DNA from: Bacteroidaceae bacterium
GTDB lineage: Bacteria > Bacteroidota > Bacteroidia > Bacteroidales > Bacteroidaceae
Assembly (NCBI GenBank): GCA_017429525.1
Contig: JAFROT010000003.1
Location: forward strand, 62,001-126,000
DNA length: 64,000 nucleotides
Direction: 5' to 3'
Shown here: one piece after another, positions 20,273 to 55,650 of the stretch
Layout of the letters: every line of letters begins with the position of its first letter
Position numbering within the stretch: position 1 is the stretch's first letter
Translations under genes and position numbers: made by a program
The notes under the pieces: model-generated
The model's input: only the letters and a program-made list of their open reading frames with translations
Database searches by the model: none
Told to the model about the DNA's origin: nothing

Positions 20273-20395
20273 AGGGTGAAAAGTGAAAGGGTGAAGAGTG
20301 AAAAATAAGAGAATCCTGCAAGGAGTGAAGTTTAAAACCTGCAGGTAATCTTTATCTTTCACTCTTCACCCTTTCGCTTTTCACTGACATTATAT
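20273..20395. repeat. GTGAAAA/TTTTCAC inverted-repeat element, copy 1
   Basis: Left arm: tandem GTGAAGG, GTGAAAA, GTGAAAGG, GTGAAGA. Core: AAGAGAATCCTGCAAGGAG ... GGTAATCTTTATCTTTCAC. Right arm: TTTCACTCTTCACCC. It lies between the DUF2723 gene stop and the deacetylase start. The arms can pair as RNA and may act as terminator for the upstream gene. Confidence 0.7.
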
Positions 20396-20407
20396 TCATT
20401 CAAACTT

Positions 20408-21061
20408 ATGTTCATAGAGCAACCAGCCCGTTTCCTGCGGTGGATTTATCCGCATGCCGTCTGGCGAATGGATTCGTCGGTAAAGGCCGTCTACCTGACC
20501 TTCGACGACGGACCAATCCCCGAGGCTACACCTTTTGTTCTCGACGTTTTAGCGCGCTATGGCATCAAGGCTACCTTCTTCATGGTGGGCGATAATGTGC
20601 GCAAGCACCCTGATGTCTTCCGTCAGGTCGTTGAGGCCGGACATCGCATAGGTAACCACACTTTCAATCATATTGGAGGCTTACGTTGGCTAAGCAAGAA
20701 TTACTTGAAGAACACCGAAAAGGCGCAGGAGATTATCGAGAGGAATCTCCATTCGGCAGAGGCTGCTGAGCGCAACGCTGTCCATCTCTTCCGCCCTCCT
20801 CACGGATGGATGCGTACCGACCAGTATCGAACTATCCGTCGGCAGGGGTATCAGATTATTATGTGGGACCTTGTCACGCGCGACTATAGCCGTCGCCTGA
20901 ATGCCGAGCAAGTGCTGGCCAACGTGAAGCGTTATGCTCGCAACGGCAGCATCATCACGTTTCATGACAGCCTTCGTAGCATCGACAAGCTGAAGCTCAT
21001 ACTCCCCGAAGCCCTTGAATGGCTTATCGCTGAAGGCTACGACTTCCGCGTCTTCGACTAA
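20408..21061 (+). CDS. Polysaccharide deacetylase (NodB homology, CE4)
   Basis: 217 residues containing the complete NodB domain: YLTFDDGPIPEAT (motif 1, about 31-43), HRIGNHTFNHIG (motif 2, about 79-90, the two metal His), LFRPPHGWM (motif 3) and MWDLVTRDYS (motif 4); motif 5 ITFHDS lies at about 190-195. No signal peptide. It should remove N- or O-acetyl groups from a glycan or a cell-wall precursor, in the cytoplasm or at the membrane. It is flanked on both sides by copies of the GTGAAAA repeat element. Confidence 0.93.
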   Translation: MFIEQPARFLRWIYPHAVWRMDSSVKAVYLTFDDGPIPEATPFVLDVLARYGIKATFFMVGDNVRKHPDVFRQVVEAGHRIGNHTFNHIGGLRWLSKNYLKNTEKAQEIIERNLHSAEAAERNAVHLFRPPHGWMRTDQYRTIRRQGYQIIMWDLVTRDYSRRLNAEQVLANVKRYARNGSIITFHDSLRSIDKLKLILPEALEWLIAEGYDFRVFD

Positions 21062-21062
21062 A

Positions 21063-21203
21063 GAGTGAAAAGCAAAAGAGTGAAAAGCAAAAGAGTGAAA
21101 AGTGAAAAATGAAAAGTGAAAAATAAAGAATACCAGCAGGGCTTAAACTTCATTCCTTGAAGGTAACTTTTATTTTTCACTTTTCATTTTTCACTTTTCA
21201 CTA
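21063..21203. repeat. GTGAAAA/TTTTCAC inverted-repeat element, copy 2
   Basis: Left arm has alternating GTGAAAAG, CAAAAGAG and GTGAAAAAT units (21063-21125); the core has AAGAATACC ... CCTTGAAGGTAACTTTTA; the right arm is TTTTTCACTTTTCATTTTTC and more (21174-21203). It fills the gap between the convergent deacetylase and QueH genes, ending two bases before the QueH stop. Confidence 0.8.
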
Positions 21204-21204
21204 A

Positions 21205-21792
21205 CTATTCATCATCCTTCCTTGGCATACTGAACTCGCAGCCGCAGTACAGTTGGTTGTAGAACCCATATTCCTTTAGCAACTGGTTGCGGCGTTCTTG
21301 TAGCCCTCCCTTACGCCAGTTCTGTGCCCAGAAGTGAGCGCCGGGAACAGCAGCCTCGGCCGCTCGTCCGGCACGTTCTATCTGATCGAGGCGCTTCCAT
21401 CGTGATGAGGCCAGCGTCGTAGCGAACCACTCGATGCGCAGCTCCACCGCCTTGCGTGCTGCAGCCGTAAGACGCATCTCGAAGCATCGTTCGCAGCGGT
21501 TTCCGCGCTCGGGTTCGCCCTCCAGCCCATGCACGCAACCGAGCCAATCGTCGTGCTGCCAGTCATCGTCGATCCACGTGATGCCAAGGCTCTCAGCATG
21601 CCGTTTGCTCTCAGCCTTGCGAATCTCATACTCCTCGCGGGGGAAGATATTGGGGTTGTAGTAATAGATGGTCGGGTGTATGTCGTGGTTCAACAACCAC
21701 TCCACGATAGCGCTCGAGCAGGGCGCACAGCACGCATGCAGCACAACTTGTTTCAGCCCTTCGGGCACTTCGATGGGATTATTCTTTTTCAT
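21205..21792 (-). CDS. queH: Epoxyqueuosine reductase QueH
   Basis: 195 residues of the DUF208/QueH family. Cysteine motifs of the iron-sulfur cluster and redox site are present: LHACCAPCSS (about 18-27) and RCERCFEMRL (about 99-108), plus YCGCEFS near the C-terminus (about 181-187). QueH reduces epoxyqueuosine to queuosine, the last step of tRNA wobble base modification, as an alternative to QueG. Length and motif order are normal. Convergent with the deacetylase. Confidence 0.95.
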   Translation of the reverse strand: MKKNNPIEVPEGLKQVVLHACCAPCSSAIVEWLLNHDIHPTIYYYNPNIFPREEYEIRKAESKRHAESLGITWIDDDWQHDDWLGCVHGLEGEPERGNRCERCFEMRLTAAARKAVELRIEWFATTLASSRWKRLDQIERAGRAAEAAVPGAHFWAQNWRKGGLQERRNQLLKEYGFYNQLYCGCEFSMPRKDDE

Positions 21793-21834
21793 TTATAGGG
21801 ATGAGATGATGAGGTTGATTTCCTTTTCCCGCTT

Positions 21835-22308
21835 TTAGTATCGGTAGGTCTGTGTGATTTGCTTGATGCCCAGGACCATCAGCACAATGGTAGCCGTAGC
21901 GATAGCCACAGTCTGCGTAAGCGAGGGCAGCAGTTCTGGCAGACGATGCAGCAAGAGCAACAGATTCACCAGCAGGCTGTCGCCGTCGAAGTGCAGCGCA
22001 CCTGCGATGATGCGCATGGCTGCTCCTTGCATCAGGTTCCATAGATACGTGAAGAAGCCCAGATAGATCATCAGCGCCACACCTGCAATCGCGCCGAACA
22101 TGTTCAGCCCGATACGCCAGCGGCGCAGGCGTAAGTGCTCCGTCGTCCAGGCCCGTTCGAACCGGGGAAGGGCGCTAACTACGCGCTCGCTGAAGCCGTC
22201 GTCGGCGATAGTCTCCTCGTGCTCGCTGAAGAAGCTGGCGAGCAGCGCGTCGTCGTTCAGCGCGTTGGTCGTGCTCTCTTCTTCTCTAAGCTCTGTTCTT
22301 TTATTCAT
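21835..22308 (-). CDS. Membrane protein coupled to the ECF sigma factor, possible anti-sigma or DUF5056-type protein
   Basis: 157 residues from ATG 22308, which overlaps the end of the sigma gene (stop at 22303-22301); ATG 22317 would add three residues. The N-terminal half is charged and soluble (NDDALLASFFSEHEETIADDGFSERVVSALP), followed by a segment near 70-90 (MFGAIAGVALMIYLGFFTYL) and another near 130-150 (TQTVAIATATIVLMVLGI). The N-terminal sequence resembles DUF5056, a family that commonly follows sigma genes in Bacteroides. It is probably an anti-sigma or regulator of the sigma factor upstream, by overlap and topology. Confidence 0.65.
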   Translation of the reverse strand: MNKRTELREEESTTNALNDDALLASFFSEHEETIADDGFSERVVSALPRFERAWTTEHLRLRRWRIGLNMFGAIAGVALMIYLGFFTYLWNLMQGAAMRIIAGALHFDGDSLLVNLLLLLHRLPELLPSLTQTVAIATATIVLMVLGIKQITQTYRY

Positions 22309-22924
22309 TGTAGCCATTTCTTCTGAGATAGTTAGCTAAGTTCTTCTTGCCACGCAGCAGGTGGCTCTTGACGGTATTCTCGTTCATGTCCGTGATTTGG
22401 GCAATCTCCTTGATACTCTGTCCTTCTACGCATTGCAGGACAACGCATGTGCGTTCGGTCTCTGAGAGGGTGCTCAGCGCCAGGTCCAAGTCGTGGCGAA
22501 GCGAGAAGCGATCTGATTCGCCCCCAGTTGTCTCTGTCTCTCTCCCTGCTCCAGCTGCAAGGGAGGGAGCGGATTGAGCCCGAGATGAAGAGGAATTACT
22601 GCGATCAAAGGTAACTGCTTCCTCCCCTATAGAGAGAGTGGGGAGAGCGTCTTTTTTCCTTTTCTCATCCAGGAACACTCTATAGGCGATTCTGAATAAC
22701 CACGTCTCGAAGCCCGAGAGCTGACGGAAGTCCTTCAGGTGCTGCCATGCGCGGATGAAAGTTTCCTGTGCCAGGTCGTCTGCCAGCATCGCATCGCCTG
22801 CGGTGAGACGGCGCAGGAAGCGGCGCACCGCTTCCTGGTGAGCGCTGACCAACTGGCCGAAGGCGCGCTCGTTGCCGAATGTCACCACTTGGGTGATGAG
22901 TACGAAGTCTGACAGGCGTGGCAT
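22301..22924 (-). CDS. ECF RNA polymerase sigma factor with an insertion in the linker
   Basis: 207 residues. Region 2: LVSAHQEAVRRFLRRL, DLAQETFIRAWQHLKDF and ETWLFRIAYRVFLDEKR (about 26-90). Region 4: ALSTLSETERTCVVLQCVEG and IKEIAQITDMNENTVKSHLLRG (about 150-195). The linker between them (about 92-135) is unusually long, Ser/Glu-rich, and encoded by DNA with repeated GGGAGAGAG, GGGAGGGA and CCTCCC tracts that look like an inserted repeat. It is followed by the overlapping membrane gene. Confidence 0.9.
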   Translation of the reverse strand: MPRLSDFVLITQVVTFGNERAFGQLVSAHQEAVRRFLRRLTAGDAMLADDLAQETFIRAWQHLKDFRQLSGFETWLFRIAYRVFLDEKRKKDALPTLSIGEEAVTFDRSNSSSSRAQSAPSLAAGAGRETETTGGESDRFSLRHDLDLALSTLSETERTCVVLQCVEGQSIKEIAQITDMNENTVKSHLLRGKKNLANYLRRNGYNE

Positions 22925-22949
22925 CGTTGTAGGACGTATTGCTTGAGGA

Positions 22950-23098
22950 GTGAAAAGTGAAAGAGCGAAAAGTGAATAATTAGGATTACTCTCAGTACTT
23001 GAAGGTAACTTGTATTTTTCGCTCTTTCACTTATTCACTTTTCATTTAAATAGGTTGCTCTTATTTTTCATTTTTCACTCTTTCACTTTTCACTCTTC
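22950..23098. repeat. GTGAAAA/TTTTCAC inverted-repeat element, copy 3 with a second half copy
   Basis: Left arm GTGAAAAGTGAAAGAGCG, core AGGATTACTCTC ... TACTTGAAGGTAACTTGTA, right arm TTTTTCGCTCTTTCAC; then a second half unit AGGTTGCTCTTATTTTTC and TTTTTCACTCTTTCAC up to the stop codon of the next gene at 23097. The core is nearly identical to the reverse complement of the copy at 39630-39768. Confidence 0.8.
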
Positions 23099-24239
23099 AG
23101 GCGTTCTCGCTCTTGTTGTAGTCGTCGGTCGAAGGCGTTTGGGCTGTCGTTCCTTGCTCTGCGCTCTTCTCTCCGTCGCCGAGTCCGGTCACGAAGCTCT
23201 CCTGCTGTGGTGCACCGCCGTTCGACGAGTGTCCTTTGCTTGTCGTAGCGATCACCAACTTGGCCACACCGATGCAAGCCACGAGGGCTCCGATGCCCCA
23301 GAAGCTACTGGGTCCAATCGAGAAGAAGAGGATGATGAGGCCTACGCCCACGCAGCAGTACATGATGCCGCTCTTCCACATCTCTGCGTTCTCGTCGGGA
23401 TAGGGTTGTACGTATCCCGTTCCAGGCATCGCTGAGCTGCTGGTGGCGTAGGTCTGCGTGCCTTGTTGGTTACCGGTTCCCTGTTGATAGTTGCCTGTTC
23501 CCTGCTCGTTGGCAGTTTGCTGGTTGCTCGTGCCCTGCTGGCTTCTTGCCTGAGCTGTCTGCTGAGCCTGTGCTGCCTGCTGAGCCTGAGCCGTTTGATA
23601 GGCTTGATACTGATAGTTACGATCCTTGCGTCCGCTGCGAGCGATCAGCCAGATGATGAGCGCTAGTATCCAGATGGGAGCCGTGAATAGGCCGAAGAGT
23701 AGGACACAGATGACGATGGCAAACAGGATGCCGAGGAAGCCCCCGAACAGGCCCAGGCCTCCACCGATGAGCTTTCCCCACCAGGTGTTCAGACCGAGTT
23801 CCTCTTTGAGGTCGTTCAGGTCCTCGTTCAAGTCGTCCCAGTCGTCTTGCGAGAGCACGACGTCGTCCGAGTCCTCGCCTTCGTAGAAGAACGTCGTGTC
23901 CTCGGCCAGCGTCTCCAGTGAGTCGCCCAGGCGCTCCATCTCGTTGCCCATCTGCTCCAGTTCCTCGCCCAGCTTCTCGGCTTTGCCAGGATTCGTGACG
24001 GCCGTCATGGCTATCTGAACGCCCTTTTTCGCCATCTTTGCCCCCTGCTTGGTCATCTGCTTGGCAACAGCTTTCTGCTGCGGAGTGGCGGGCTTGCCGT
24101 TGACGGTCATGCCCTTCATCTGGATTGTGGCGGTAGCGTTCTGGGTGGAATCTGCGGTTTCCTCGGCTCGGAGCGAGGTGCAGGGCATGGCCATCATCAG
24201 CGTGGCCATCGCCATCAGGAAGAATGATTTTGTCTTCAT
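23097..24239 (-). CDS. Exported or membrane protein with coiled-coil and Q/A/T-rich linker
   Basis: 380 residues. Signal peptide (MKTKSFFLMAMATLMMAM, cleaved near 25). A helical, charged stretch (about 85-150; EKLGEELEQMGNEMERLGDS) could be a coiled coil. A glycine-rich hydrophobic segment (about 155-195; GGGLGLFGGFLGILFAIVICVLLFG) is membrane-spanning. A Gln/Ala-rich low-complexity linker (about 205-260) leads to a second hydrophobic region (about 290-330). Function not recognised. Its stop codon is overlapped by the GTGAAAA repeat copy at 22950-23098. It is divergent to the sigma gene at 24399. Confidence 0.72.
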   Translation of the reverse strand: MKTKSFFLMAMATLMMAMPCTSLRAEETADSTQNATATIQMKGMTVNGKPATPQQKAVAKQMTKQGAKMAKKGVQIAMTAVTNPGKAEKLGEELEQMGNEMERLGDSLETLAEDTTFFYEGEDSDDVVLSQDDWDDLNEDLNDLKEELGLNTWWGKLIGGGLGLFGGFLGILFAIVICVLLFGLFTAPIWILALIIWLIARSGRKDRNYQYQAYQTAQAQQAAQAQQTAQARSQQGTSNQQTANEQGTGNYQQGTGNQQGTQTYATSSSAMPGTGYVQPYPDENAEMWKSGIMYCCVGVGLIILFFSIGPSSFWGIGALVACIGVAKLVIATTSKGHSSNGGAPQQESFVTGLGDGEKSAEQGTTAQTPSTDDYNKSENA

Positions 24240-24338
24240 CGTTTTATACTTTTTATTGTTGAATTCAGTCGTTCGTGTCTGACTTTACATCGAATAGACG
24301 ACAAAGGAAGCAAAAAAGTTGCAGGTATCTTCAGTTTT

Positions 24339-24372
24339 TTTGAAAAAAAATGCAGTTTCCTACTTAACTTTG
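24339..24372 (+). promoter_or_regulatory. Promoter of the second ECF sigma operon
   Basis: TTTG at 24339-24342 and TAACTTTG at 24365-24372, 22 bases apart. Start codon at 24399. Confidence 0.6.
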
Positions 24373-24398
24373 TACCGCCGAAAGCGTAATAAAGGTGT

Positions 24399-24908
24399 AT
24401 GACACGCTCCGATTTCGAACATATTGCCGCTCAGTTGCGACCGCTCATGCTCCGCGTCGCCCTCGATTTCTTCGGTGCTACCGACGAGGCCGAGGACGTC
24501 ACGCAAGAGGCGCAGCTCGCCCTGTGGCGCTATTGCGAACGCATCGACTCCGAGCGGAATGTCGAAGGTCTGGCCGTGCGTGTCACCAAGAACTGCTGCA
24601 TCAGCTGGCATCGCCGTCATCATTCCTTGCCCACCGTCACCGACAGCTCACCGTCGGTCACCGCTTCCGCCCTCTCCCCCTCCCCTCACGAATTGCTCGA
24701 AGCCAAGGACGCACAAACCCTCTTGGCCGAAGCCCTCGCCCGTCTGGAACCGCGAGAACGACAGCTCTTCGAGATGCGACAGCTCCAGGGCCTCACGCTC
24801 GACGAGATTGCCGCACAGACAGGCATTCAGAAATCATCGGTCAAATCCATGATCTCAACCGCACGAAAGAAACTCCTCACCGAACTCAAACATCGTCTCA
24901 GACTATGA
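24399..24908 (+). CDS. ECF RNA polymerase sigma factor
   Basis: 169 residues. Region 2 includes LRPLMLRVALDFFGATDEAEDVTQEAQLALWRYCERI (about 12-50). Region 4 includes ALARLEPRERQLFEMRQLQG and LDEIAAQTGIQKSSVKSMISTARKKL (about 110-160). The linker (about 75-100) has a Ser/Pro-rich stretch. It is the first gene of an operon with 24905-25690 (4-base ATGA overlap) and 25719-26834. The promoter is at 24339-24372. It probably drives its own operon and responds to the membrane protein downstream. Confidence 0.92.
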   Translation: MTRSDFEHIAAQLRPLMLRVALDFFGATDEAEDVTQEAQLALWRYCERIDSERNVEGLAVRVTKNCCISWHRRHHSLPTVTDSSPSVTASALSPSPHELLEAKDAQTLLAEALARLEPRERQLFEMRQLQGLTLDEIAAQTGIQKSSVKSMISTARKKLLTELKHRLRL

Positions 24909-25690
24909 ACACCCAAGAGATACAATCACTCATCGACCGCTTCTTAGCCGCCGAGAGCACTCCCGAAGAGGAGCGCCGACTGGCCCTCGCCCTGCACGAG
25001 GCTGCCGCAGCTACTGGCGATGACCTGCCCGCCGACTGGCAGGCCGCCCTCCTCATGCTGGGCGAGTTGACGCTGGGCGAAGCGCTCTACGATGACACCC
25101 TCGCTCGTCGCAATCCGGCGCCCTTGGCCCAAAGTCTTTCTGCCCAAAGCGTTCGCCTGGCCACCGAGAGCCAGAAGAGCCGTAGCCTCCGGCTTTGGCG
25201 CTGGGCGGCTGCCGTCGCGCTGGTCTTTGCGACCGGTCTTGGCGTTGCGCTCCATCAGTCGAGGACGCCTCAGCCTATGGTCGCGAGCGTGAGTCTCACC
25301 GGTGAGACAAGTGAGTCTCACCAGTGGGACAAGCGAGTCTCACCGGTGAGACAGGACTCCGCGACCATTCGCATCAGCGATGTCGACCCGTCGCATGAGC
25401 AAACACGAATGGTCGCATCAGCCAGAGCGAACAGACGTAAAAGAAGAACTGTCCGGCCAGAGACGATGCTTCCACCTACGGAAATGCCTTCGTCCCCACA
25501 GGAGGAGCGGGCTGAGGAGCCCTTGCTGGCAACTGCTGAGGCTGGACAACAGCCTGAGAACGTCCAGTACCAGTCACTTACGTACACCGACGATCCTTAC
25601 GCAGCCTTGGAAGCTGAGATGCGCGACATCCGCAGCCGTGGCGAGCGCGTTGAGGCGATGATAGCCAAACTGACTGGCCCTATCGAATAA
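24905..25690 (+). CDS. Single-pass membrane protein, probable anti-sigma partner
   Basis: 261 residues starting at the ATGA overlap with the sigma gene. The N-terminal 90 residues are cytoplasmic and helical (IQSLIDRFLAAESTPEEERRL), a membrane segment follows (about 97-113, WAAAVALVFATGLGVAL), and the outside part is charged and Pro/Glu-rich, ending in a helix (DPYAALEAEMRDIRSRGERVEAMIAKL). Topology and placement fit an anti-sigma factor, though no zinc motif is seen. Odd: residues about 128-151 are coded by three tandem 22-bp palindromic repeats (25289-25354), read in three different frames because 22 is not a multiple of three. Confidence 0.75.
   Translation: MNTQEIQSLIDRFLAAESTPEEERRLALALHEAAAATGDDLPADWQAALLMLGELTLGEALYDDTLARRNPAPLAQSLSAQSVRLATESQKSRSLRLWRWAAAVALVFATGLGVALHQSRTPQPMVASVSLTGETSESHQWDKRVSPVRQDSATIRISDVDPSHEQTRMVASARANRRKRRTVRPETMLPPTEMPSSPQEERAEEPLLATAEAGQQPENVQYQSLTYTDDPYAALEAEMRDIRSRGERVEAMIAKLTGPIE
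25289..25354. repeat. Three tandem 22-bp palindromic repeats within a gene
   Basis: Units at 25289-25310, 25311-25332 and 25333-25354. Each holds a perfect or near-perfect palindrome GTCTCACCGGTGAGAC (middle copy GTCTCACCAGTGGGAC) with spacer AAGTGA or similar. The 22-base period rotates the reading frame once per unit. Confidence 0.9.
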
Positions 25691-25718
25691 TTCTATCCAC
25701 TACATACCTCTATCCATT

Positions 25719-26834
25719 ATGAAAAAGTCATTGATTCTCCTATTCCTACTCCCCCTGTCCCTCTCCATCTGCGCCCAGCCCAATGCACGCCTGCAAGAGC
25801 TCGAACAGGCGTTGAAGGAGCAAGGTTTCAACCTCTCTCATATTCAGCGCAGCGCACGCGGCATCGAGCAGCGGTGGACCTCGAACCTCTACATTTCATC
25901 CTTGGCTCCTAATATCTCGAAGGGAATGATTGAGAAAATGTCAGCAGCCGAGCTGAGAGCCTTCAAGCAGAAGATAGACAGCACGGAAACGGTCAAAAAG
26001 CAGCGCACCGCTGAGGCCATCGACCTCATCCGCAGCACCTTCAGCGCCCTCGCCGCAGAAGCATCAGAGAGTTATATGTACGAAGTCCACAACAAGGAAT
26101 GTGACACCATCCGCCTCTCCATGGCTTGGCGCGACGGCGACCTGGCCCTCAGCTCTTGGCGCGGCGATGGCGGCATCCACTACAGCAATGCCCGCGAGGC
26201 CGTCAGCTTCAGCTTCCATCGCCCTCCAGGGCAGGATTGGTCATCAGGGATGTACACGCACGTGTACACCGCCCCTTACCCCGAGCCGATGGGCGACATC
26301 AAGTCCTTCGACGGCAAAGCCTTTCAGACTCATATCTCGCCCTGCCTGAAACGTGCGTTAAAGCTGAAGGGCGCAAAGAAATATCCCGTCTATTGGCGGC
26401 ACGACGAGGGCTATAATGAGGAGGTAGGAGAGTTGATTTACAAGGTGACTGTGCAGAAAGATTATGCCGACAACAAGCATACAGGCCTCACGACGGGCGA
26501 CCTGTATTTCATCCCAAAGGCCTACGAGAGCGAAGCCCAAGAGTTGCTCACGACCTTGGATTCACTCACTCATGACTATATTGAGAGGCACTACGACCAG
26601 GCTTACTCTTACACGTTCAATCCCCGCTTCTCCTACCATAATGATGTCGTCATCGTTTCAGGTAGTGGCTGGCCCGATAAGCAGCCCGTGGACACGGATT
26701 ATCTGTTGAGCACATACATGGACGACGACGGTTTCTACTTCCTCTTTGTCACTACCGAAGGCGAAATCTGGATGCCTCGCGACTATCCCAAGCTCAAGAG
26801 CTGGATGAATGGCGAACGCATCTATCGCAAGTAA
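25719..26834 (+). CDS. Exported protein of unknown function in the sigma operon
   Basis: 371 residues with an N-terminal signal peptide (LLFLLPLSLSICAQ, cleaved after about 19). It is 28 bases after the putative anti-sigma gene, so probably the third gene of the operon. The middle of the protein has mixed alpha/beta content: SMAWRDGDLALSSWRGDGG (about 134-152), followed by a long region with aromatic-rich strands (YPVYWRHDEGYNEEVG; FNPRFSYHNDVVIVSGSGW). No catalytic pattern stands out. It may sense or respond to envelope stress; that is inference from context only. Confidence 0.7.
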   Translation: MKKSLILLFLLPLSLSICAQPNARLQELEQALKEQGFNLSHIQRSARGIEQRWTSNLYISSLAPNISKGMIEKMSAAELRAFKQKIDSTETVKKQRTAEAIDLIRSTFSALAAEASESYMYEVHNKECDTIRLSMAWRDGDLALSSWRGDGGIHYSNAREAVSFSFHRPPGQDWSSGMYTHVYTAPYPEPMGDIKSFDGKAFQTHISPCLKRALKLKGAKKYPVYWRHDEGYNEEVGELIYKVTVQKDYADNKHTGLTTGDLYFIPKAYESEAQELLTTLDSLTHDYIERHYDQAYSYTFNPRFSYHNDVVIVSGSGWPDKQPVDTDYLLSTYMDDDGFYFLFVTTEGEIWMPRDYPKLKSWMNGERIYRK

Positions 26835-27079: not shown

Positions 27080-27595
27080 ATGAAAGAGATCTTTCTTGCC
27101 GGTGGCTGCTTCTGGGGCACCGAGCACTTCTTCAAGCAAATCGAAGGCGTCGTAGAGACCGAAGTAGGCTTTGCCAACGGCAACACCGACAGCCCTACAT
27201 ATAAAGAGGTATATACCGACACGACAGGTTATGCCGAGACCGTCCGCATCCGCTACGATGAGCAAGTGGCCGACCTGGAGTTCCTGCTCCGCATGTTCTT
27301 CAAGGCCATCGACCCGACGAGCCTCAACCGCCAAGGGCATGACGAAGGCACGCGCTATCGCACGGGCGTCTACTATACGTCTGTCGATGACCTGCCTACG
27401 ATAAGAAAAGTCTTTGCAGAGCAGCAGGCGTTGCTCGCTGAACCGATTGTCGTAGAGGTCGAACCCCTCCGTAACTTTTATGCTGCTGAGGACTACCATC
27501 AGGACTACCTCGACAAGAACCCCGACGGCTACTGCCACCTGCCCCTCGAGCTGTTCGCCTTCGCGCGACAAGCTTCTCACGAACACGTGAAATGA
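27080..27595 (+). CDS. msrA: Peptide-methionine (S)-S-oxide reductase MsrA
   Basis: 171 residues. The catalytic motif GGCFWGTEH (about 8-16) with the nucleophilic Cys, then GYAETVRIRYD (about 54-64), ending with DYHQDYLDKNPDGYCH (about 139-154). It reduces methionine-S-sulfoxide, free or in proteins, using thioredoxin. No MsrB is fused, unlike many Bacteroidetes. The downstream gene starts within its stop codon (27592), so the two may be translationally coupled. Confidence 0.95.
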   Translation: MKEIFLAGGCFWGTEHFFKQIEGVVETEVGFANGNTDSPTYKEVYTDTTGYAETVRIRYDEQVADLEFLLRMFFKAIDPTSLNRQGHDEGTRYRTGVYYTSVDDLPTIRKVFAEQQALLAEPIVVEVEPLRNFYAAEDYHQDYLDKNPDGYCHLPLELFAFARQASHEHVK

Positions 27596-28347
27596 TGAAT
27601 CAGCGCGCCCTCCTTTTCCCGAATGGCCGCCTTGACGTGCGCATGTCGAACCGCCTTGACGTGAACATGTCGAAGCGTCGATGCTCCTCTTGGCAGCTAT
27701 TGCTTTTATTTTTCATTTTTCACTTTTCACTTTTCACTCCTCTCCCCGCCAGCACCCATTGGCGCATAGAAGCCGAGTCGCCGGAGACGCGCATCCTGCA
27801 GCGAGCCGATACCCTCGACATCACCTCCCCCAAGGGCCTCTCGCTCTGGTGGGATCAACCCTTGACCGCGCCTTGCACCATCGAGTATCGCGCCTGTGTC
27901 GTCGTCGATGGAGGGCCCTGCGACCGCCTCTCCGACCTCAACTGTTTCTGGATGGCCAGCGAGCCCTTCGCGGGACTGTCCAAGCGCGGCGGTCGCTTCG
28001 CCGAGAGCTACCGCCTCGAATGTTACTACCTCGGCTACGGCGGCAACCATAACACGACAACCCGCTTCCGCCGTTATACGGCCGACACCCTCGCCGTCAG
28101 CAATCCGGCCCACCGCCCACCTATCCTCGTGGAGTACACCGACAGCGCCCATCTGCTGCGCCCCAACCATTGGTACGACGTCCGCATAGAGGTCCGTACA
28201 GACGGGCGCACTCGCTACTATATCGACGGCGAACTGCTCGTCGACTATCTTGATCCCGCTCCTCTCACTCGTGGCTGGTTTGCGTTCCGCACGACTTGGA
28301 GCCACACCCGTCTCACCGCCTTCCGTGTGACAACAGCACAACAATAA
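27592..28347 (+). CDS. DUF6250 exported protein; N-terminus built from repeats
   Basis: Up to 251 residues from ATG 27592, overlapping the msrA stop; internal ATGs at 27643 and 27667 are alternatives and would give a simpler signal peptide. The mature part matches DUF6250 (LWWDQPLTAPCTIEYRA about 79-95, DRLSDLNCFWMASEPFAG about 107-124, NHWYDVRIEVRTDGRTRYYIDG about 187-208), a beta-sandwich often found in proteins that act on plant polysaccharides. The signal sequence (LLLLFFIFHFSLFTPLP, about 37-53) is encoded by half of the dispersed TTTTTCAC element. Upstream of it, two exact-length 24-bp direct repeats (27627-27674) encode RLDVRMSN and RLDVNMSK. Confidence 0.75.
   Translation: MMNQRALLFPNGRLDVRMSNRLDVNMSKRRCSSWQLLLLFFIFHFSLFTPLPASTHWRIEAESPETRILQRADTLDITSPKGLSLWWDQPLTAPCTIEYRACVVVDGGPCDRLSDLNCFWMASEPFAGLSKRGGRFAESYRLECYYLGYGGNHNTTTRFRRYTADTLAVSNPAHRPPILVEYTDSAHLLRPNHWYDVRIEVRTDGRTRYYIDGELLVDYLDPAPLTRGWFAFRTTWSHTRLTAFRVTTAQQ
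27627..27741. repeat. Two 24-bp direct repeats followed by a TTTTTCAC half element, inside a gene
   Basis: CCGCCTTGACGTG-CATGTCGAA units at 27627-27650 and 27651-27674, then GCTTTTATTTTTCATTTTTC and TTTTCACTTTTCAC (27709-27741). The second part is the right arm of the dispersed GTGAAAA/TTTTCAC element. Confidence 0.75.
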
Positions 28348-29162: not shown

Positions 29163-29165
29163 GGG

Positions 29166-39557: not shown

Positions 39558-39629
39558 TTATTTTGCAAATATTTTCATTATGAGCAGCTTTTTCTTATTT
39601 CGAAGGCAGAAATATGGGAAGATTTAGAT

Positions 39630-39768
39630 TGAAAAATGAAAAGTGAAAAATGAAAAGTGAAGGCAATAGAGTGAAAAGTGAAAAGTGAAAAATACAAATT
39701 ACCTTTCATATCCAGAGAGTAATTCTTATTTTTCACTTTTCATTTTTCACTTTTCACTAATATCACTT
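39630..39768. repeat. GTGAAAA/TTTTCAC inverted-repeat element, copy 4
   Basis: Left arm GAAAAATGAAAAGTGAAAAA and further units (39630-39692); core TACAAATTACCTTTCATATC then CAGAGAGTAATTC; right arm TTATTTTTCACTTTTCATTT and TTTCACTTTTCAC to the stop of the receptor gene (39763). Read on the minus strand the core matches the copy at 22950-23098 base for base over most of its length. Confidence 0.85.
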
Positions 39769-49727: not shown

Positions 49728-49747
49728 CCGGAAAAACAAGATTCATC

Positions 49748-51289
49748 ATGACTTCTCGCTTCAGATTTTCTTCTCTCTTGGCCGTGCTCGTCCTCTTGCT
49801 CGCGGCGGCCTGCAACCATCGACAGGCTGACTACCAACTGCTGTACACCGTCAGCCCCGACACCGTTGGCCACTACCTGAACGTAAGCCTTACTTACACC
49901 TCCGACAGCACCCTCCCCCACCCTACCGACGTCGTGCTGACTATGCCTCGTTGGGCGCCAGGGTACTACGAGATGCTCGACTTCGCCAAACACCTGACGG
50001 ACTTCAGTGCGCAGGACACGCAAGGGCAAAAGCTCACATGGCGCAAGGAGGGGCTGAATCGTTGGCGCGTCTCGCTGCCCGAGAACGGACGCATGGAGGT
50101 CACCTATCGCGTTTATGCCAACCAACGCGATGTGGCCTCGAGCCGCGTGGAGCGTGATATCGCCTTCGTTGCGCCAAACGGCGTCTTCATGTACGTGGAC
50201 GGGCAGCAGGCGCACCCCGTGACCGTCCGCTTCCAGTTGCCCGACAACTGGCAGCATATCGCCACCGGTATGAAACCGCATCCCGACGACAGCTGCGCCT
50301 TCACCGTCGCGGACTTCGACATCCTCTATGATTCACCCCTGCTGCTGGGCAATTTCTACGTGAAGAGGTTCGCCCACGAGGGCCACGACTACGAGTTTGC
50401 CCTCGAGACGCCCGACGGAGCTGAGGAGATGCAACTCGAAGACAACTTCAAGCGCATTGTCACGGCCGCCACGCAGATGATGGGCGACGTGCCCTACGAC
50501 AACTACTGCCTCATCCATATGGGCCAAGGTGGCGGTGGGCTCGAGCATCTGAACTCGCAGGCCTGCTACACCGACGGCACCTACCGCTTCGCCACGCGTC
50601 GCGAGGAGGTCAAGTTCCTGGCCTTCGTCGCCCATGAGTACTTCCATCTCTATAACGTCAAGTGCATCCGGCCGGCCGAACTGTGGCCGCTCGACTACGA
50701 CCACGAGGCCATCACGCCGATGCTCTGGGTCAGCGAGGGCCTGACTTGCTACTATGAGTTCCGACTTCTGCGCAATGCCGACATCGCAACGCCCGACGAG
50801 GCGCTGGAACTGCTCTCTACCTATTTCTCGCTCTATGCGCCCCATGAAGGGCAGCGTCATCAGAGCCTGCGGCAGAGCAGCTATGATATATGGCTTAACT
50901 TCATGAACCCCGACGATAACGCGCGCGAGGTACGCATCAACTACTACTTCAAAGGTCCCGTCATCGGTCTGCTCCTCGACATCGACATCCGTCGCAAGAC
51001 CCAGCAGCAGAAGTCGCTCGACGACGTGATGCGCCTGCTCTATCAGCGCTACTACCACGAGCTGCAACGCGGCTTTACCGAAGAAGAGTTCTGGGATGCC
51101 TGTGCCGAAGTGGCTGGCCAGCCGCTCACGGATGTCCGTCGCCTCGTGGACACTACCGACGATATCCCTTACGCCGACTACCTCACCGACGCCGGCCTCC
51201 GCGTGGACACCACCACCTGGAGCATCCTTCGCGTGGACAATCCTACCGCCGAGCAACAGCAGTTCCTCCGAGCCCTCAACTTGGAATAA
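49748..51289 (+). CDS. M61 family metallopeptidase (lipoprotein, no PDZ domain)
   Basis: 513 residues. A lipoprotein signal with lipobox LAAAC (Cys about 22) is visible. An N-terminal beta domain (about 30-190) precedes the M61 catalytic region: GGGGLEHLNSQACY (about 260-273), AFVAHEYFHLYNVK (zinc HEYFH about 296-300) and the distal Glu in WVSEGLTCYYEF. The usual C-terminal PDZ domain of the family (around 600 residues) is missing: the protein ends soon after the helical region. The enzyme cuts glycine-rich or N-terminal residues in the periplasm. Divergent from the M50-like gene. Confidence 0.9.
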   Translation: MTSRFRFSSLLAVLVLLLAAACNHRQADYQLLYTVSPDTVGHYLNVSLTYTSDSTLPHPTDVVLTMPRWAPGYYEMLDFAKHLTDFSAQDTQGQKLTWRKEGLNRWRVSLPENGRMEVTYRVYANQRDVASSRVERDIAFVAPNGVFMYVDGQQAHPVTVRFQLPDNWQHIATGMKPHPDDSCAFTVADFDILYDSPLLLGNFYVKRFAHEGHDYEFALETPDGAEEMQLEDNFKRIVTAATQMMGDVPYDNYCLIHMGQGGGGLEHLNSQACYTDGTYRFATRREEVKFLAFVAHEYFHLYNVKCIRPAELWPLDYDHEAITPMLWVSEGLTCYYEFRLLRNADIATPDEALELLSTYFSLYAPHEGQRHQSLRQSSYDIWLNFMNPDDNAREVRINYYFKGPVIGLLLDIDIRRKTQQQKSLDDVMRLLYQRYYHELQRGFTEEEFWDACAEVAGQPLTDVRRLVDTTDDIPYADYLTDAGLRVDTTTWSILRVDNPTAEQQQFLRALNLE

Positions 51290-51324
51290 AATAAAAAAGG
51301 ACGAATTATTTGTCATTCATCGTT

Positions 51325-51455
51325 CATATCAGGTAACGCTTACCTCTCACTTCTCACCTTTCACGCCCCCCTCCGACTCTCCTGAGGGGGGAGAGAGTGG
51401 ATGCAGCAGGGTAAATATCATTTTTCACTTTTCACCTTATCATTTTTCACTTTCT
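51325..51455. repeat. TTTTCAC-type repeat element, copy 5, with a CT/AG-rich hairpin
   Basis: Begins TCAGGTAACGCTTACCTCTC, then CACTTCTCACCTTTCACG; then a hairpin of CCCCCCTCCGACTCTCC and GGGGGGAGAGAGTGG (51366-51401); then TTTTTCACTTTTCACC and TTTTTCACTTTC up to the ATG at 51457. Only the right-arm sense is present. Confidence 0.65.
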
Positions 51456-51456
51456 C

Positions 51457-52416
51457 ATGTTCACTCGCCTCAGCCGCACGTTGGCTTCGCATGCTTCGTT
51501 GTTTGTCACGGCCGTTGCCGTTCTCACCTTCTTCTTCCCCACCCTCTTCAACTGGGTGCGGGGCAACACCCAAACCGCCATCCTCGGCATCATCATGCTG
51601 ACGATGGGCTTGACGCTGACCACGGAGGATTTCCGCGTGCTGGCGCGCCGTCCGCTGGACATCCTCATCGGCGCCTGCGCTCAGTTCATCATCATGCCCT
51701 GCGTGGCGTGGCTGCTGGTGCGTGTCTTCCATCTGGAGCCCGCCCTGGCCCTCGGCATCCTTCTCGTAGGTTGCTGTCCGGGTGGCGTGTCCAGCAACAT
51801 CATGAGCTACCTCTGTCATGGCGACGTAGCCTATTCCGTAGGGATGACCTGCGCCTCTACCCTACTTGCTCCTGTGATGACGCCGCTGCTGATGCAGTAT
51901 CTGGCCGGCGAGATCATCGAGATCGACGCCATCGGCATGTTCCTGAACATCCTCATCGTGACGATTATCCCCGTTGGCATCGGCTGTTTCCTCAACTATA
52001 CCTTCTCCCAACGCAAGAGCTTCCCGACCATTCAGGCCCTGATGCCCGGACTGAGCGTCATCAGCCTGGCCTGCATCGTGGGCGGAGTCATCTCTACGGT
52101 TCACGATGATCTTGTAGCCCGTGGTCTCACGCTCTTCCTGTGGACCTTCGCCGTCGTCTTCTGCCACAACACCTTCGGCTACCTGTTGGGCTACGGAGTC
52201 GGCATCCTCGCCAAGTTCACTACCGCCAAGAAGCGTACCATTAGCATCGAAGTGGGTATGCAGAACGCAGGCTTGGCCACCGTCCTCGCCAGCACCTTCT
52301 TCGCCGCCCAGCCCCTCTCCGTGCTCCCCTGCGCCATCTCCTGCGCTTGGCACAGCATCAGCGGCACTATTCTCTCCTCCCTCTTCCTGCGTTGGGAACG
52401 AATACATAACTCATAA
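51457..52416 (+). CDS. Bile acid:sodium symporter family transporter
   Basis: 319 residues, about ten membrane segments. Landmarks: GIIMLTMGLTLTTEDFRVL (about 44-62), GILLVGCCPGGVSSNIMSYLCHGDVAYSVGMT (about 100-131) and ISIEVGMQNAGLATVLAS (about 263-280), matching SBF proteins that take up bile acids, pyruvate-like acids or other organic anions with sodium. Normal length. The start lies right at the end of a repeat element. No promoter is obvious. Confidence 0.92.
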   Translation: MFTRLSRTLASHASLFVTAVAVLTFFFPTLFNWVRGNTQTAILGIIMLTMGLTLTTEDFRVLARRPLDILIGACAQFIIMPCVAWLLVRVFHLEPALALGILLVGCCPGGVSSNIMSYLCHGDVAYSVGMTCASTLLAPVMTPLLMQYLAGEIIEIDAIGMFLNILIVTIIPVGIGCFLNYTFSQRKSFPTIQALMPGLSVISLACIVGGVISTVHDDLVARGLTLFLWTFAVVFCHNTFGYLLGYGVGILAKFTTAKKRTISIEVGMQNAGLATVLASTFFAAQPLSVLPCAISCAWHSISGTILSSLFLRWERIHNS

Positions 52417-52497
52417 AGGTTATATTTCTTTCAACAAAAACTGCATGTGGCTGAGCCCATCAACTATTCCCTCAACATCATTTAGTCAAACAACGAT

Positions 52498-52560
52498 ATG
52501 AAGGAAAAGATGGATGCTCTGCTTACCGACTTTTCTGATATTGATTCATCGGCTATGTGA
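52498..52560 (+). CDS. Possible 20-residue peptide or gene remnant
   Basis: A small frame from ATG 52498 encodes MKEKMDALLTDFSDIDSSAM, then TGA. It lies between the SBF gene and the terminator at 52614-52649, in A/T-rich DNA. It may be a fragment of a lost gene or chance. No family recognised. Confidence 0.25.
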   Translation: MKEKMDALLTDFSDIDSSAM

Positions 52561-52613
52561 TTCCTCAGCGGTTGGGAGAATGGGCAATAATAAGGCAACG
52601 AACTAGAGACGGA

Positions 52614-52649
52614 CGAGGATGCAAATAGTACATCCTCGCCTATTTTTTT
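52614..52649 (+). terminator. Intrinsic terminator
   Basis: CGAGGATG (52614-52621) and CATCCTCG (52631-52638) form an 8-bp stem with a 9-base loop, followed by CCTATTTTTTT. It ends any transcript from the SBF gene or the small frame at 52498. Confidence 0.75.
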
Positions 52650-52728
52650 GGAAAAAGCCCCTTCCATTTAAATCTATTTCGGATTTTTCGAGTCTTTATG
52701 ACAGATGCATCTCAAAAACATAAAGACA

Positions 52729-53241
52729 ATGAATAAAGAAAACAACATCACTATGAAAGAACTCGCTGAGCACTTTCGACAGGAACAACCGCACTTGATA
52801 AGGTATGCCTGCTATCGCCTTGGTAATGCAGACGATGCGAAAGATGCGCTGCAAGATGTCTTCCTTAAAATCAGCGCAAAACTCTCTGATGAGAAGAGTG
52901 TTGAAGTGAGAGACTGGCGCAACTATATCTTTCGTGCGCTCTCTAACTTGTGTTCCTCACGGCTTGCTGCATCAGGAAAGCTCAGGACAATAGCCTTGGA
53001 CGCTCGCTTGGACTTGGCAGACATACCGTCAGAAAACAACGAAGCGGACTACCAACGAATTGCCCAGCTACTTATGGAAATCCCAGAGGAACAGTCCGAA
53101 GTCATACGTCTCAGAATCTATGGCAACAACAGCTTTGCTGATGTAGCCGAGATTCTTTCTCTTCCCTTGCCCACGGTAAAATCCCGTTTCCTATATGGAT
53201 TGGAGAAAATCCGTCGGGCTATGAAACAAACAACTCATTAA
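52729..53241 (+). CDS. ECF RNA polymerase sigma factor in an A/T-rich segment
   Basis: 170 residues from ATG 52729 (ATG 52705 and 52753 are alternatives). Region 2: HLIRYACYRLGNADDAKDALQDVFLKISAKL (about 22-55), then NYIFRALSNLCSSRLA. Region 4: LMEIPEEQSEVIRLRIYG and FADVAEILSLPLPTVKSRFLYGLEKIRRAM. It is followed after 23 bases by the anti-sigma gene. The DNA is clearly more A/T-rich than its neighbours, suggesting a different origin. Confidence 0.88.
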   Translation: MNKENNITMKELAEHFRQEQPHLIRYACYRLGNADDAKDALQDVFLKISAKLSDEKSVEVRDWRNYIFRALSNLCSSRLAASGKLRTIALDARLDLADIPSENNEADYQRIAQLLMEIPEEQSEVIRLRIYGNNSFADVAEILSLPLPTVKSRFLYGLEKIRRAMKQTTH

Positions 53242-53264
53242 TCACATTAAAATGAACATTAGTT

Positions 53265-54548
53265 ATGAATTGCAAGGAATTTAAAGATAAAGTGGTCGAC
53301 CTTTTCGATACCACCATTGACATGCAGTTGCAAGCCGAATGCAAAGCACATATGGCCGAATGTATTGAATGCAAAGCTTACTATGAAGAACTGGCAGAAG
53401 CCTTCAAAGTATTGCAGCCACAGGAGCCTCATAGCAAGCAATCTGCAAGCGAACCCGTTGCGAATCATCATCATCTCTGGCACCCTATCGCTGTTGTAGC
53501 TATATTCCTGCTTGGATTCATCATCGGCTGGAGCCACCTCTTCTCTACATCTGCTGTGGCTGAGACCTCACGCGGCCAGTTCTTTGACCACGGCATTCAA
53601 AGCGTACAAAACGTTGGCAGTTTCCAAATGGCAATTTATGCCCGCACTACGCCTAATGAAAACTTTGCCCATCTCGACCCCAGAGCAGACTTTGTGAGAA
53701 TAGATATTGGACTCCTGCGACAGAACGATAGCGTGTTCTATCGCGTTGAGAAGCAGAATGGGCGAACCATCGTATTTGACGGCCATACTCAATATATGTG
53801 GGTACCCAATGCCCTCTACGTGAAAGGGCCTCGCACAGCCAACTTCCTTGAAAACTTTGTCAGTCTGCTTTATCCCGAACGTTTATTGGACATTCAGAGA
53901 TCCGCTATCGCCTTTTCCAAGAAAAATGATGTGACGCGTACGGAGACAGACACCACCATCATCCTCACCTTCAAGGGAACAGATAAGAATCGTGACCTTC
54001 TGCAACTGCTCGAGACTGGAGAAATGGGGAATTGCGAGGTGGAAGTGGAGAATGTATTCACAAAGAATGACGGACTGCTACGCTTTGTCAAACTTTGGGT
54101 TGTTGATGAAGGCCAAAAAACCCTCTTACTTCATATTGAGAATATTCAGTACAATGTCATATTGAACCGTGCCCATATTACACAAATTCCTGAAGCTCAA
54201 TGGACAGATGTAACAAAGACTACATCAGATACAGCTAACGAACGACTCAATAGGCTACAGCAGGAGACTGCCACACAAGCTGCAGAGCGTATCCTTCAAG
54301 CTATCATCAGTGGCAATAACAATCAAGCCAGCGAAGCACTAGTCTATTACAAGAACATACTCCCTACGTTGACTGAAAAGATGAAAGGTTGTAAAGTTTC
54401 AGGCTTCCAAGAACGCCGTGAAGGTGATTATGTTGGGGTGTATATATTCTATACTCTGACATATCCTGACGGGAAACAAGAGCAGAAACATATAGCAGTC
54501 AGGAACGACAACGAAAAACATATATGGATTGCTGACGGCGGTCTATAG
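53265..54548 (+). CDS. Zinc-finger (ZAS/HC2) anti-sigma factor with a large outer domain
   Basis: 427 residues. The N-terminus has the anti-sigma zinc motif: CKEFKDKVVDLFD (Cys3), then HMAECIECKAYYEEL (His about 29, Cys33 and Cys36). A membrane segment follows (WHPIAVVAIFLLGFIIGW, about 72-89). The large extracytoplasmic domain (about 100-427) includes FQMAIYARTTPNENFAHLDP and DTTIILTFKGTDKN, reminiscent of LolA/RseB-like lipoprotein-binding folds and ends in a small beta domain (VGVYIFYTLTYPDGKQEQKHIAV). Zinc finger and coupling to the sigma gene make it the anti-sigma of 52729-53241. Confidence 0.82.
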   Translation: MNCKEFKDKVVDLFDTTIDMQLQAECKAHMAECIECKAYYEELAEAFKVLQPQEPHSKQSASEPVANHHHLWHPIAVVAIFLLGFIIGWSHLFSTSAVAETSRGQFFDHGIQSVQNVGSFQMAIYARTTPNENFAHLDPRADFVRIDIGLLRQNDSVFYRVEKQNGRTIVFDGHTQYMWVPNALYVKGPRTANFLENFVSLLYPERLLDIQRSAIAFSKKNDVTRTETDTTIILTFKGTDKNRDLLQLLETGEMGNCEVEVENVFTKNDGLLRFVKLWVVDEGQKTLLLHIENIQYNVILNRAHITQIPEAQWTDVTKTTSDTANERLNRLQQETATQAAERILQAIISGNNNQASEALVYYKNILPTLTEKMKGCKVSGFQERREGDYVGVYIFYTLTYPDGKQEQKHIAVRNDNEKHIWIADGGL

Positions 54549-54595
54549 ATGGTTGAATAATCAGAGGATTGTACGCCAGTTCCTATGATTGGTTC

Positions 54596-54629
54596 CTCCC
54601 CGTTTGCTTGCAAGCGACGGGGAGTTTTT
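54596..54629 (+). terminator. Intrinsic terminator of the sigma/anti-sigma operon
   Basis: CTCCCCGT (54596-54603) pairs with ACGGGGAG (54617-54624); the loop contains the palindrome GCTTGCAAGC; a T-run (TTTTT) follows at 54625-54629. Confidence 0.75.
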
Positions 54630-54657
54630 AATGACAACATCTTTGGAGGAGATTGGA

Positions 54658-55650
54658 CTAAGCCAGCAGTAGCGCCAAGGATTCCAGTAAGGCGTAGAGG
54701 AAGATGTTGGCGGCGGTTTGGCCAAGGACTGCATTCAAGGGACGTCCGTGGTGTAAGCGCTTCATACGCAGCCATGTGCGCGTATGCTGGATGAGGTAGA
54801 AAAGAGGGAGAAGAGTGAAAAGTGAAATATGAAGAGTGGAATGTGAAGAATAGGAGTTACTATTCATGGAAGAATAAACAGCGGGGATCAAAGGTAGCAG
54901 AATGGCGAGGACGCCGAGGGCGAGATACAGCCATTCGGCAAAACGCTCGCCGAGGAGGACGACGATGGTGCGCTTGCCCGCGGTGCGGTCCTGCTCGCGG
55001 TCGCGGTAGTTGTTGACGACGAGAAGGCAGTCCGTGGCGAGGCCCATGCCGATGGAAAGCAGCAGCACGGACAGCGTGACTTCGCCCGTCTGGATGAAAT
55101 ACGTGGCGCAGACGGGCACGAGACCGAAGAACACGAGTACCAGCACGTCGCCCAGCCCGATGCCTGCTAACAACGTGGTATAGAGGAAACAAAAGATTAC
55201 GCACGCCACGCCGATAGCCACCAGCCACCAACCGCCCCACAACACCAGTGGCAGCCCTGTGAGGCAGGCCAGCGCCGTGGTGATACCTATCCCCCACCCC
55301 ATCGCTCGCGGCGTAATCCAACCTTCGCTGCAAGCGCGTGGCGGTCCCAGGCGCGTCTCGCGGTCATCACGCCCCTTGCGGAAGTCGAAGTAGTCGTTGA
55401 CGAAATTGGCATCCACCTGCATCAGTAGGGCGAAGAAGAGGCATAACAGCGCTGGCGTCCAGCTGAATTCACCTTGCGGAGGACGGCATCCTTCGGTCAG
55501 ACCTGGGTCTGCGAAGTTCAGGTCTCTCCATGCCGCACTCAGCGCCACCATCACAGGCGCGGCGGCGCCCGTAAGGGTCTTCGGACGCGCTGCCAACCAC
55601 CACGCCCGCAGGCTGTTGGTGCGAATGGCTTCAGGTGTCTGCTGTTTCAT
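54658..55650 (-). CDS. menA: 1,4-dihydroxy-2-naphthoate polyprenyltransferase (MenA)
   Basis: 330 residues from ATG 55650 (MKQQTPEAIRTNSLRAWWLAARPKTL); the upstream frame overlaps the small TM gene and is rejected. UbiA-type motifs: VDANFVNDYFDFRKGRDDRETR (first Asp-rich, about 78-99) and VNNYRDREQDRTAGKRT (second Asp-rich, about 206-222). Nine or so membrane segments. It attaches the prenyl chain in menaquinone synthesis. Residues near 263-290 (NSNSYSSHSTLHISLFTLLP) are encoded by a copy of the dispersed repeat element, an in-frame insertion between two membrane helices. Confidence 0.9.
   Translation of the reverse strand: MKQQTPEAIRTNSLRAWWLAARPKTLTGAAAPVMVALSAAWRDLNFADPGLTEGCRPPQGEFSWTPALLCLFFALLMQVDANFVNDYFDFRKGRDDRETRLGPPRACSEGWITPRAMGWGIGITTALACLTGLPLVLWGGWWLVAIGVACVIFCFLYTTLLAGIGLGDVLVLVFFGLVPVCATYFIQTGEVTLSVLLLSIGMGLATDCLLVVNNYRDREQDRTAGKRTIVVLLGERFAEWLYLALGVLAILLPLIPAVYSSMNSNSYSSHSTLHISLFTLLPLFYLIQHTRTWLRMKRLHHGRPLNAVLGQTAANIFLYALLESLALLLA
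54808..54870. repeat. TTTTCAC-type repeat element inside menA, copy 6
   Basis: Read on the minus strand: ATGAATAGTAACTCCTATTC, then TTCACATTCCACTCTTCATA, then TTTCACTTTTCACTC. This matches the element core GTAACT-N2-TATT-N-TTCAC and right arm of the copies at 21063-21203 and 22950-23098. Confidence 0.75.

Follow-up and report, generated by a model that had tools for sequence, protein, structure and literature searches.

A 64,000-nucleotide stretch of contig JAFROT010000003.1 from a Bacteroidaceae bacterium (assembly GCA_017429525.1, positions 62,001 to 126,000; hereafter the window) carries several copies of a repeat element in which two inverted arms of tandem seven-base units (heptads) enclose a near-palindromic core. 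The element is dispersed and palindromic, it is present at some orthologous sites and absent from others, it resides in frame within genes, its length changes by heptads and in one case its core has been inverted. With a probability of about two in three we regard it as a selfish, non-autonomous palindrome that works like the Rickettsia palindromic elements (RPEs) and belongs to an uncultured rumen genus containing UBA4372 as well as to one or more other Bacteroidales metagenome-assembled genomes (MAGs); the likeness would lie in the mode of working and not in membership. The in-frame residence inside conserved genes is the strongest feature and was missing from a preliminary description of the window, which had been made from the sequence alone.

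Architecture of the element

Scanning the window with RTGAAAA-type 14-mers (up to two mismatches) gave 44 heptad matches, compared with a mean of 0.71 and a maximum of 3 in 100 shuffles. The core AAGGTAACTTGTATTTTTC (up to three mismatches) occurs at exactly three sites, 21160 (+), 23002 (+) and 39687 (−), and at none in 100 shuffles, so the copies at 22950 and 39630 had correctly been described as opposite in orientation. Throughout the window's own genome the half-core TGANRAATAMRRRTTAC (up to one mismatch) has 75 matches against a single one for the reversed pattern. These fall on 51 places and include 23 head-to-head pairs, which represent closed palindromes and of which 15 have exactly 32 bp between the starts. 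The 39630 copy as a query returned 104 matches in the same genome at E ≤ 1, many of them overlapping.

The arm unit is RTGANRA, occurring in the flavors GTGAAAA, ATGAAGA and ATGACGA, mostly with one flavor per copy. A single copy measures ~100–140 bp, with roughly 35–55 bp of core between the arms; the core is a near-palindrome, AATAmrrrTTACC...GGTAAyyykTATT, beginning with AATA-N4-TTACC and ending roughly as its reverse complement. The GTGAAAA/ATGAAAA heptads of the preliminary description are thus confirmed, the unit being wider and including the unlisted ATGAAGA and ATGACGA arms. Its view of purine-only against pyrimidine-only arms is wrong, since no GTGAAAA or ATGAAAA unit is free of T, and the triplex argument fails with it.

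An inverted-repeat search of the window yielded arms of 33, 48, 43 and 57 nt at 20276/20352, 21094/21155, 22941/23060 and 39645/39727, respectively; the 57-nt pair is 70% paired, its inner 33 nt 91%. The three half copies gave no inverted repeat. Below, G numbers denote genomes of the genus (139 species genomes; G000 is the window's own, G131 (RUG14845) its sister species, G072 is RGIG6660 and G055 Prevotellaceae bacterium UBA4372), L numbers fetched loci and C numbers contigs. Among loci chosen for their heptad content, a period of seven fitted the arms best in 25 of 28 inverted repeats of the own genome, 7 of 9 of G131 and 53 of 89 in loci of other MAGs. For junction loci, which were chosen by gene similarity, this was the case in six of nine, four of the six being from the own genome or G131 and the others being L114 and L141. 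RNA folding predicted −54 kcal/mol for the copy at 21094, −60 kcal/mol for 20276, −37 and −34 kcal/mol for the two strands of 39670 (z of −9 to −12) and −42 kcal/mol for the 22950 composite (z of −6.9).

Two variations were seen in arms and core. ATGACGA arms (L306:1420-1600, L303, L256, L244) are often interrupted by CTCGCTTCGCTCGG or similar, the translation of which (NDESRFARNDE) avoids the TGA that plain heptads would give; there is a likeness to CGTC-tagged repeats. Furthermore, three copies of the own genome (L286, L288, L311) carry GGACACATAGGACA-like motifs in the core, resembling another repeat near the junction in L100.

Copies inside genes

Gene context was determined for 113 copies (29 from the own genome, 14 from G131 and 70 from other MAGs, overlapping slightly with G131) using a crude longest-ORF caller (ORF, open reading frame). 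A copy was considered in frame only if homology was found on both sides of the insert, the remaining cases being termed apparent. For a polysaccharide flippase, a radical-SAM activase, a sugar transporter of the major facilitator superfamily (MFS) and an ABC-F ATPase, Pfam homology flanks or surrounds the insert. A helicase, an M56 peptidase and FecR matched on one side of the insert only, and the putative glycosidase of L262, which also carries a copy, had no Pfam match. Copies are in frame within the flippase and the pyruvate-formate-lyase activase genes, and apparently also within those of the MFS transporter, the ABC-F ATPase and the M56 peptidase. The MFS copy is located in the long loop that connects the halves of the transporter; since aligned xylose symporters have a long loop there as well, the copy may have taken the place of other sequence instead of lengthening the loop.

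The flippase was matched in 11 of 14 searched genomes. Six of the 11 orthologues carry a heptad copy, two carry other palindromes, two (G072, G083) are empty and one (G111) has eight extra residues. The heptad copies, of the GTGAAAA flavor in G000, G120, G131 and G067 and of the ATGACGA flavor in G110 and G143, add 36–50 residues in frame, and at the same place G015 and G114 contain GC-rich palindromes, likewise in frame. Unrelated palindromes share one flippase codon across species. In a ranking of core similarity, those of G000, G120 and G067 outranked all 108 background cores for each other, that of G131 did so less clearly, and the cores of G110 and G143 ranked only 11th to 100th of 109 when compared with the GTGAAAA ones. 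A single insertion followed by arm replacement is thus unsupported for the ATGACGA copies, and repeated use of one permissive site is favored.

Of the 25 loci returned for the activase, 20 were examined, and an in-frame ATGACGA copy was found in two of these homologues (G131 and G000). G018 exhibits a half-copy-like stretch and the remainder lack such a copy. The linker comprises 52 residues in G131 and 64 in G000, compared with 12–43 in 17 others and one that was not measurable. Eight inserted peptides gave no NCBIfam match at E ≤ 5, the presence of RPE models in NCBIfam being unconfirmed.

A GC-rich palindrome family (CCCTCCC...GGGAGGG) was also observed in frame in genes, namely in the L034 ORF 427-2277 (residues 349–414) and in the above flippases of G015 and G114, as well as at the L101 junction and as a second insert in the G131 activase, beside the heptad copy in the same gene. 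Signal-peptide-like coding was noted by eye at 27666-27760 of the window, where pyrimidine heptads encode the hydrophobic N-terminal stretch of a DUF6250 protein. The N-terminus of a POTRA-containing ORF in L176 is comparable.

Sites between genes

At the junction 20268/20408 the window has a 139-bp gap with a copy, and in 22 of 41 relatives at most 7 bp separate the same two genes, which often overlap in TAATG or TGATG; in most of these 22 cases the end of the first gene was extrapolated. Nine of the 41 relatives align to the last 10 bases of the first gene, and five of the nine abut. Elsewhere the junction is occupied by a GTGAAAA palindrome (G141), a smaller GTGAAAA hairpin (G018), an ATTAACA-type palindrome (G067) or ATTATTA heptads (G051), all recognized by eye, and by an AATGTAT-heptad palindrome in G118, recognized by eye and by the arm-period analysis.

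With the crude caller, the 29 copies of the own genome were assigned to 10 tandem, 8 convergent and 1 divergent gap, 6 positions inside an ORF and 4 at an edge. The corresponding numbers are 5, 3, 0, 4 and 2 for the 14 copies of G131 and 30, 6, 2, 16 and 16 for the 70 copies of other MAGs. In total, 17 convergent placements face 3 divergent ones; for comparison, the gene pairs of the window are 25 tandem, 9 divergent and 9 convergent.

Comparison with the sister species and matching of the arms

Three copies compared with G131 were 99.3% (22950), 98.5% (L002) and 95.5% (L306) identical, while the flanking 100-bp bins ranged between 71 and 100%, 76 and 95%, and 86 and 100%, respectively. A general rule that copies are more conserved than their flanks was rejected, as it holds at two of the three sites only. 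At L002:1498-1632 and 22950-23750 the identity peaks at the copy and falls outward, slowly on one side at 22950, as if the copies had seeded recombination tracts. At the 39630 site G131 has an additional 35 bp in each arm and a further 7 in the left one, where the insertion duplicates a segment with non-heptad bases in it. The site L287/L263 has the same flanks in G000 and G131 but opposite orientations of the core.

The two arms of a copy resemble each other more than arms of different copies do, with identities of 0.727 versus 0.603 in the own genome and 0.592 versus 0.495 in the multi-species set (0 of 5000 permutations each); in G131 the difference (0.605 versus 0.533) was not significant (293 of 5000, all flavors). 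The flavor of the first heptad is the same on both arms in 21 of the 29 own copies, with 12.4 expected (0 of 5000 permutations). Within one flavor the matching is significant in the own genome only (8 and 59 of 5000), so the multi-species matching mostly reflects flavor.

Host range

The exact half-core occurs in 45 of the 139 genus genomes with 0–48 matches each, the reversed control giving 4 matches over all 139. The highest numbers were found for G072 (48), the own genome (32), G131 (27), G120 (20) and G141 (20). The preliminary description had proposed a dispersed palindromic family with a common core and a profile scan for further copies; with 51 places in the own genome and matches in these 45 genomes, the family is borne out genome-wide and in related species. 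The further MAG RUG12352, with 228 half-cores against 3 for the control, exceeds each of the 139 genus genomes, and the exact GAAAAGTGAAAAATGAAAAATACARRTTA was present in 21 of 40 stretches read around its half-cores. Three of its loci (L406, L408, L423) share a different right part, with CTRGTAGCCACCAGAACGAG, in place of the usual right half, possibly representing a larger element.

Among GTDB species genomes a stricter first pattern had no match in genome contigs, and a looser one gave at least 107 stretches. Among the 80 listed, 79 belong to Bacteroidaceae, Prevotellaceae or Bacteroidales MAGs, many of them ruminant-derived by record title, and one belongs to a Phycisphaerae MAG of the Planctomycetes group. 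In the latter (contig JAPKGY010000276.1, L184:1595-1660) an ATGACGA heptad run is followed by AATAAGGATTACC, for which chance, transfer or contamination are possible. A home of the family in Phycisphaerae was rejected, since this MAG has two matches against one for the control and hence at most a stray half copy. One element pattern had no exact match in IMG/VR, and the 39630 copy had no match in plasmids and phages, where the BLAST low-complexity filter may hide such a query. Several contigs (G131 C314; G000 C11 and C32; G001 C8 and C20; G013 C5) end at or near heptad tracts, and copy numbers in MAGs may therefore be underestimates.

Copies in the window

As outlined in Table 1, the seven copies of the preliminary description are real, with the restrictions that the 20269 core has diverged, that the copies at 27703, 51325 and 54808 are either degenerate or halves and that the 22950 copy is a composite with an extra right half. 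Contrary to the described placement just after stops or before starts, the half copy at 27703-27737 lies inside an ORF and not in a gap. In the 21064 copy the four core-adjacent heptads are identical between the arms. The composite copy was also found in G131.

Table 1 Copies of the heptad-armed element in the window (positions in nt from the first letter of the window).
Feature	Position	Strand	Arms and core	Neighboring genes
Full copy, GTGAAAA flavor	20269..20384	+	arms 20276-20308 / 20352-20384; diverged core	stop of 1123-aa ORF at 20268; start of 217-aa ORF at 20408
Full copy	21064..21202	+	arms 21094-21141 / 21155-21202	between convergent ORFs (ends 21061, 21205)
Composite copy	22941..23102	+	left arm, core 22979-23015, right arm, extra right half ~23045-23102	
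Half copy, heptads only	27703..27737	−		inside ORF 27592-28347 (DUF6250 at residues 77-244)
Full copy	39629..39757	−	core 39692-39729, opposite in direction to core at 22979	
Degenerate composite	51325..51455	−	TTTTCAC heptads around GC-rich palindrome	
Half copy	54808..54860	+	diverged heptads, then AATAGGAGTTACT; same half-core in G131	

Mode of spread and alternative explanations

As a selfish palindrome, the element would be tolerated where it does little harm. Its copies follow stop codons or separate genes that adjoin each other in relatives, and they are rare in divergent gaps; some are located in protein-coding genes at tolerant positions, where they stay in frame and would be translated as roughly 35–50 extra residues. 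Copies would move instead of only being lost, spread by some process acting on the hairpin. The arms would grow by slippage, as suggested by the differing arm lengths at 39630, and would be kept alike by arm-to-arm copying, that is by template switching in the hairpin, which would explain both the matched arms and the inverted core.

Several observations weigh against this reading. A mobilizing enzyme was not identified, and the 37 copies analyzed for target-site duplications showed no significant one, TA, TTAA and TTAGAA being tempting by eye. The activase linker varies in length among homologues without a copy, so these may not represent clean empty sites. Two of the three sites compared with G131 have a higher identity in the copy than in most of the flanking sequence, for which constraint or recombination could also be responsible. 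Since several copies also occur in the sister species, movement need not be recent. Finally, the within-flavor matching of the arms is absent from the multi-species set (2517 and 2720 of 5000 permutations) and from G131 (4086 of 5000); with the signal confined to the own genome, the data argue only faintly for arm-to-arm correction.

A miniature inverted-repeat transposable element (MITE) proper, i.e. a deletion derivative of a DNA transposon that is moved by a transposase recognizing the core or the arm ends, is an unlikely alternative, in accordance with a palindromic, dispersed element of ~100 bp that is patchy among species. Of the three guesses of the preliminary description, a MITE-like mobile element, a terminator or a regulatory RNA, the first is also the nearest; that description had suggested searching the gaps for target-site duplications. 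Direct repeats were counted at 37 of the 113 copies, after exclusion of poorly paired arms, missing flanks and duplicates, and compared with mixed left and right flanks. Two of the 37 have a 6-nt repeat (TTAGAA, TTTTAA), the expectation for repeats of this length or longer being 0.28. Overall there was no significant excess, with 22 versus 17.6 at 2 nt or more, 9 versus 7.1 at 3 nt, 2 versus 2.8 at 4 nt and 2 versus 0.8 at 5 nt. Furthermore, the heptad number at the ends is variable, and among 253 half-cores of the window and the GTDB loci no solitary inverted pair 0.5–4 kb apart, and thus no autonomous partner, was found.

Somewhat less probable is a parasite that needs no transposase at all, in which slippage lengthens the heptad hairpin and template switching from arm to arm keeps it palindromic. 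The sequence could then change while palindrome, site and frame stay, leading to unrelated palindromes at the same codon, as in Rickettsia.

The idea of a functional 3′-end hairpin, acting as a transcription terminator, mRNA stabilizer or processing site, draws on RNA hairpins of very high predicted stability (z about −12 at −54 and −60 kcal/mol) and on copies following genes, with 3 divergent against 17 convergent placements. The same placement is expected from selection against damage, and termination would be harmful inside reading frames and at a junction where about half of the relatives examined have the two genes abutting. The exact half-core is absent from 94 of the 139 genus genomes and Rfam had no match in the window between 18000 and 56000, so we consider such a function improbable.

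Mobilization as a repetitive extragenic palindromic (REP) element or REP doublet forming a hairpin (REPIN) by a REP-associated tyrosine transposase (RAYT, of the IS200/IS605-type Y1 transposases) appears highly improbable. The element is palindromic, largely extragenic and lineage-restricted, and clear Y1_Tnp matches exist in some copy-bearing genomes (G062 with 10 half-cores and 80 bits, G055 with 4 and 73 bits). However, the copy-rich genomes G072 (48), G141 (20), G059 (16) and G015 (14) have no such match, and the own genome, G131, G120, G110 and G143 reach only 20–24 bits, the match in the own genome covering 47 model positions of a 433-aa frame. Half-cores number 0, 0, 0 and 1 in the four genomes whose Y1 matches score best, and GTAG is not enriched, GTAG/CTAC being present in 25 of 113 copies compared with 24–86 for five control tetranucleotides.

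Chance low-complexity tracts can practically be dismissed, since, despite heptad arrays without a core in L004 and L094, the core is conserved and shuffles (44 versus 0.71 and 3 versus 0) as well as the reversed pattern (75 versus 1) exclude them.

Comparison with known systems

Foldback elements are a eukaryotic family with long inverted arms of tandem subrepeats; the heptad element has such arms too, a likeness of design only. RPEs are described as palindromes of 100–150 nt in gaps and in frame within genes (PMC4316617, PMC3767692), which agrees with the heptad element in size, palindromy, many copies and in-frame residence. For RPE-4, RPE-6 and RPE-7, different RPE groups are reported near the same place in orthologous genes, with ATGAC as characteristic motif (PMC3767692); here, different palindromes occupy one flippase codon and one arm flavor is ATGACGA. 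The two differ in their hosts (Rickettsiales versus rumen Bacteroidales) and in the heptad-minisatellite arms, of which the GTGAAAA and ATGAAGA copies lack ATGAC, the comparison being one of descriptions. For coding palindromes of nematomorph mitochondria, template switching has been proposed (PMC6649704).

CGTC-tagged REPs are reported in Bacteroidetes, apparently without a dedicated transposase (PMC3733652). Like these and the GTAG-tagged REPs, the heptad element is palindromic, mostly downstream of genes and sometimes intragenic, and TCGTCAT arms contain CGTC. The tagged REPs measure 20–40 bp with CGTC stems of 8–9 bp (PMC3733652), in contrast to heptad stems of ~30–50 bp here, and the GTGAAAA and ATGAAGA flavors are devoid of CGTC. 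BrickBuilt, a MITE of Porphyromonas gingivalis, shares the order Bacteroidales and the combination of tandem repeat and inverted-repeat ends, but is described with a 23-nt unit, a direct array with small inverted ends and an always intergenic location (PMC4596501). The enterobacterial RU-1 to RU-3 are MITE-like and keep reading frames in genes, with signal peptides among their motifs (PMC2759123); compared by description, they differ in hosts and lengths, and the available text mentions no heptads. TAACTGA and other heptamer repeats of five Bacteroidetes have a seven-base unit and are mostly intergenic, but are direct repeats, the accessible part describing neither a palindrome nor a core (PMC4679880). 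Within titles and abstract openings of the papers listed from largely open-licence literature, no published description of a heptad-armed family was found.

Rickettsia and Wolbachia are the best-known hosts of protein-coding palindromes, for whose spread we met no account in the literature covered. The heptad element would add a second, high-copy system of this kind, hosted by a rumen genus for which 139 species genomes are available. Its many empty and filled orthologous sites, the in-gene copies in conserved enzymes and the trackable repeat unit would make the origin, spread and decay of such palindromes directly testable. It also illustrates how proteins can acquire small inserts and perhaps signal peptides.

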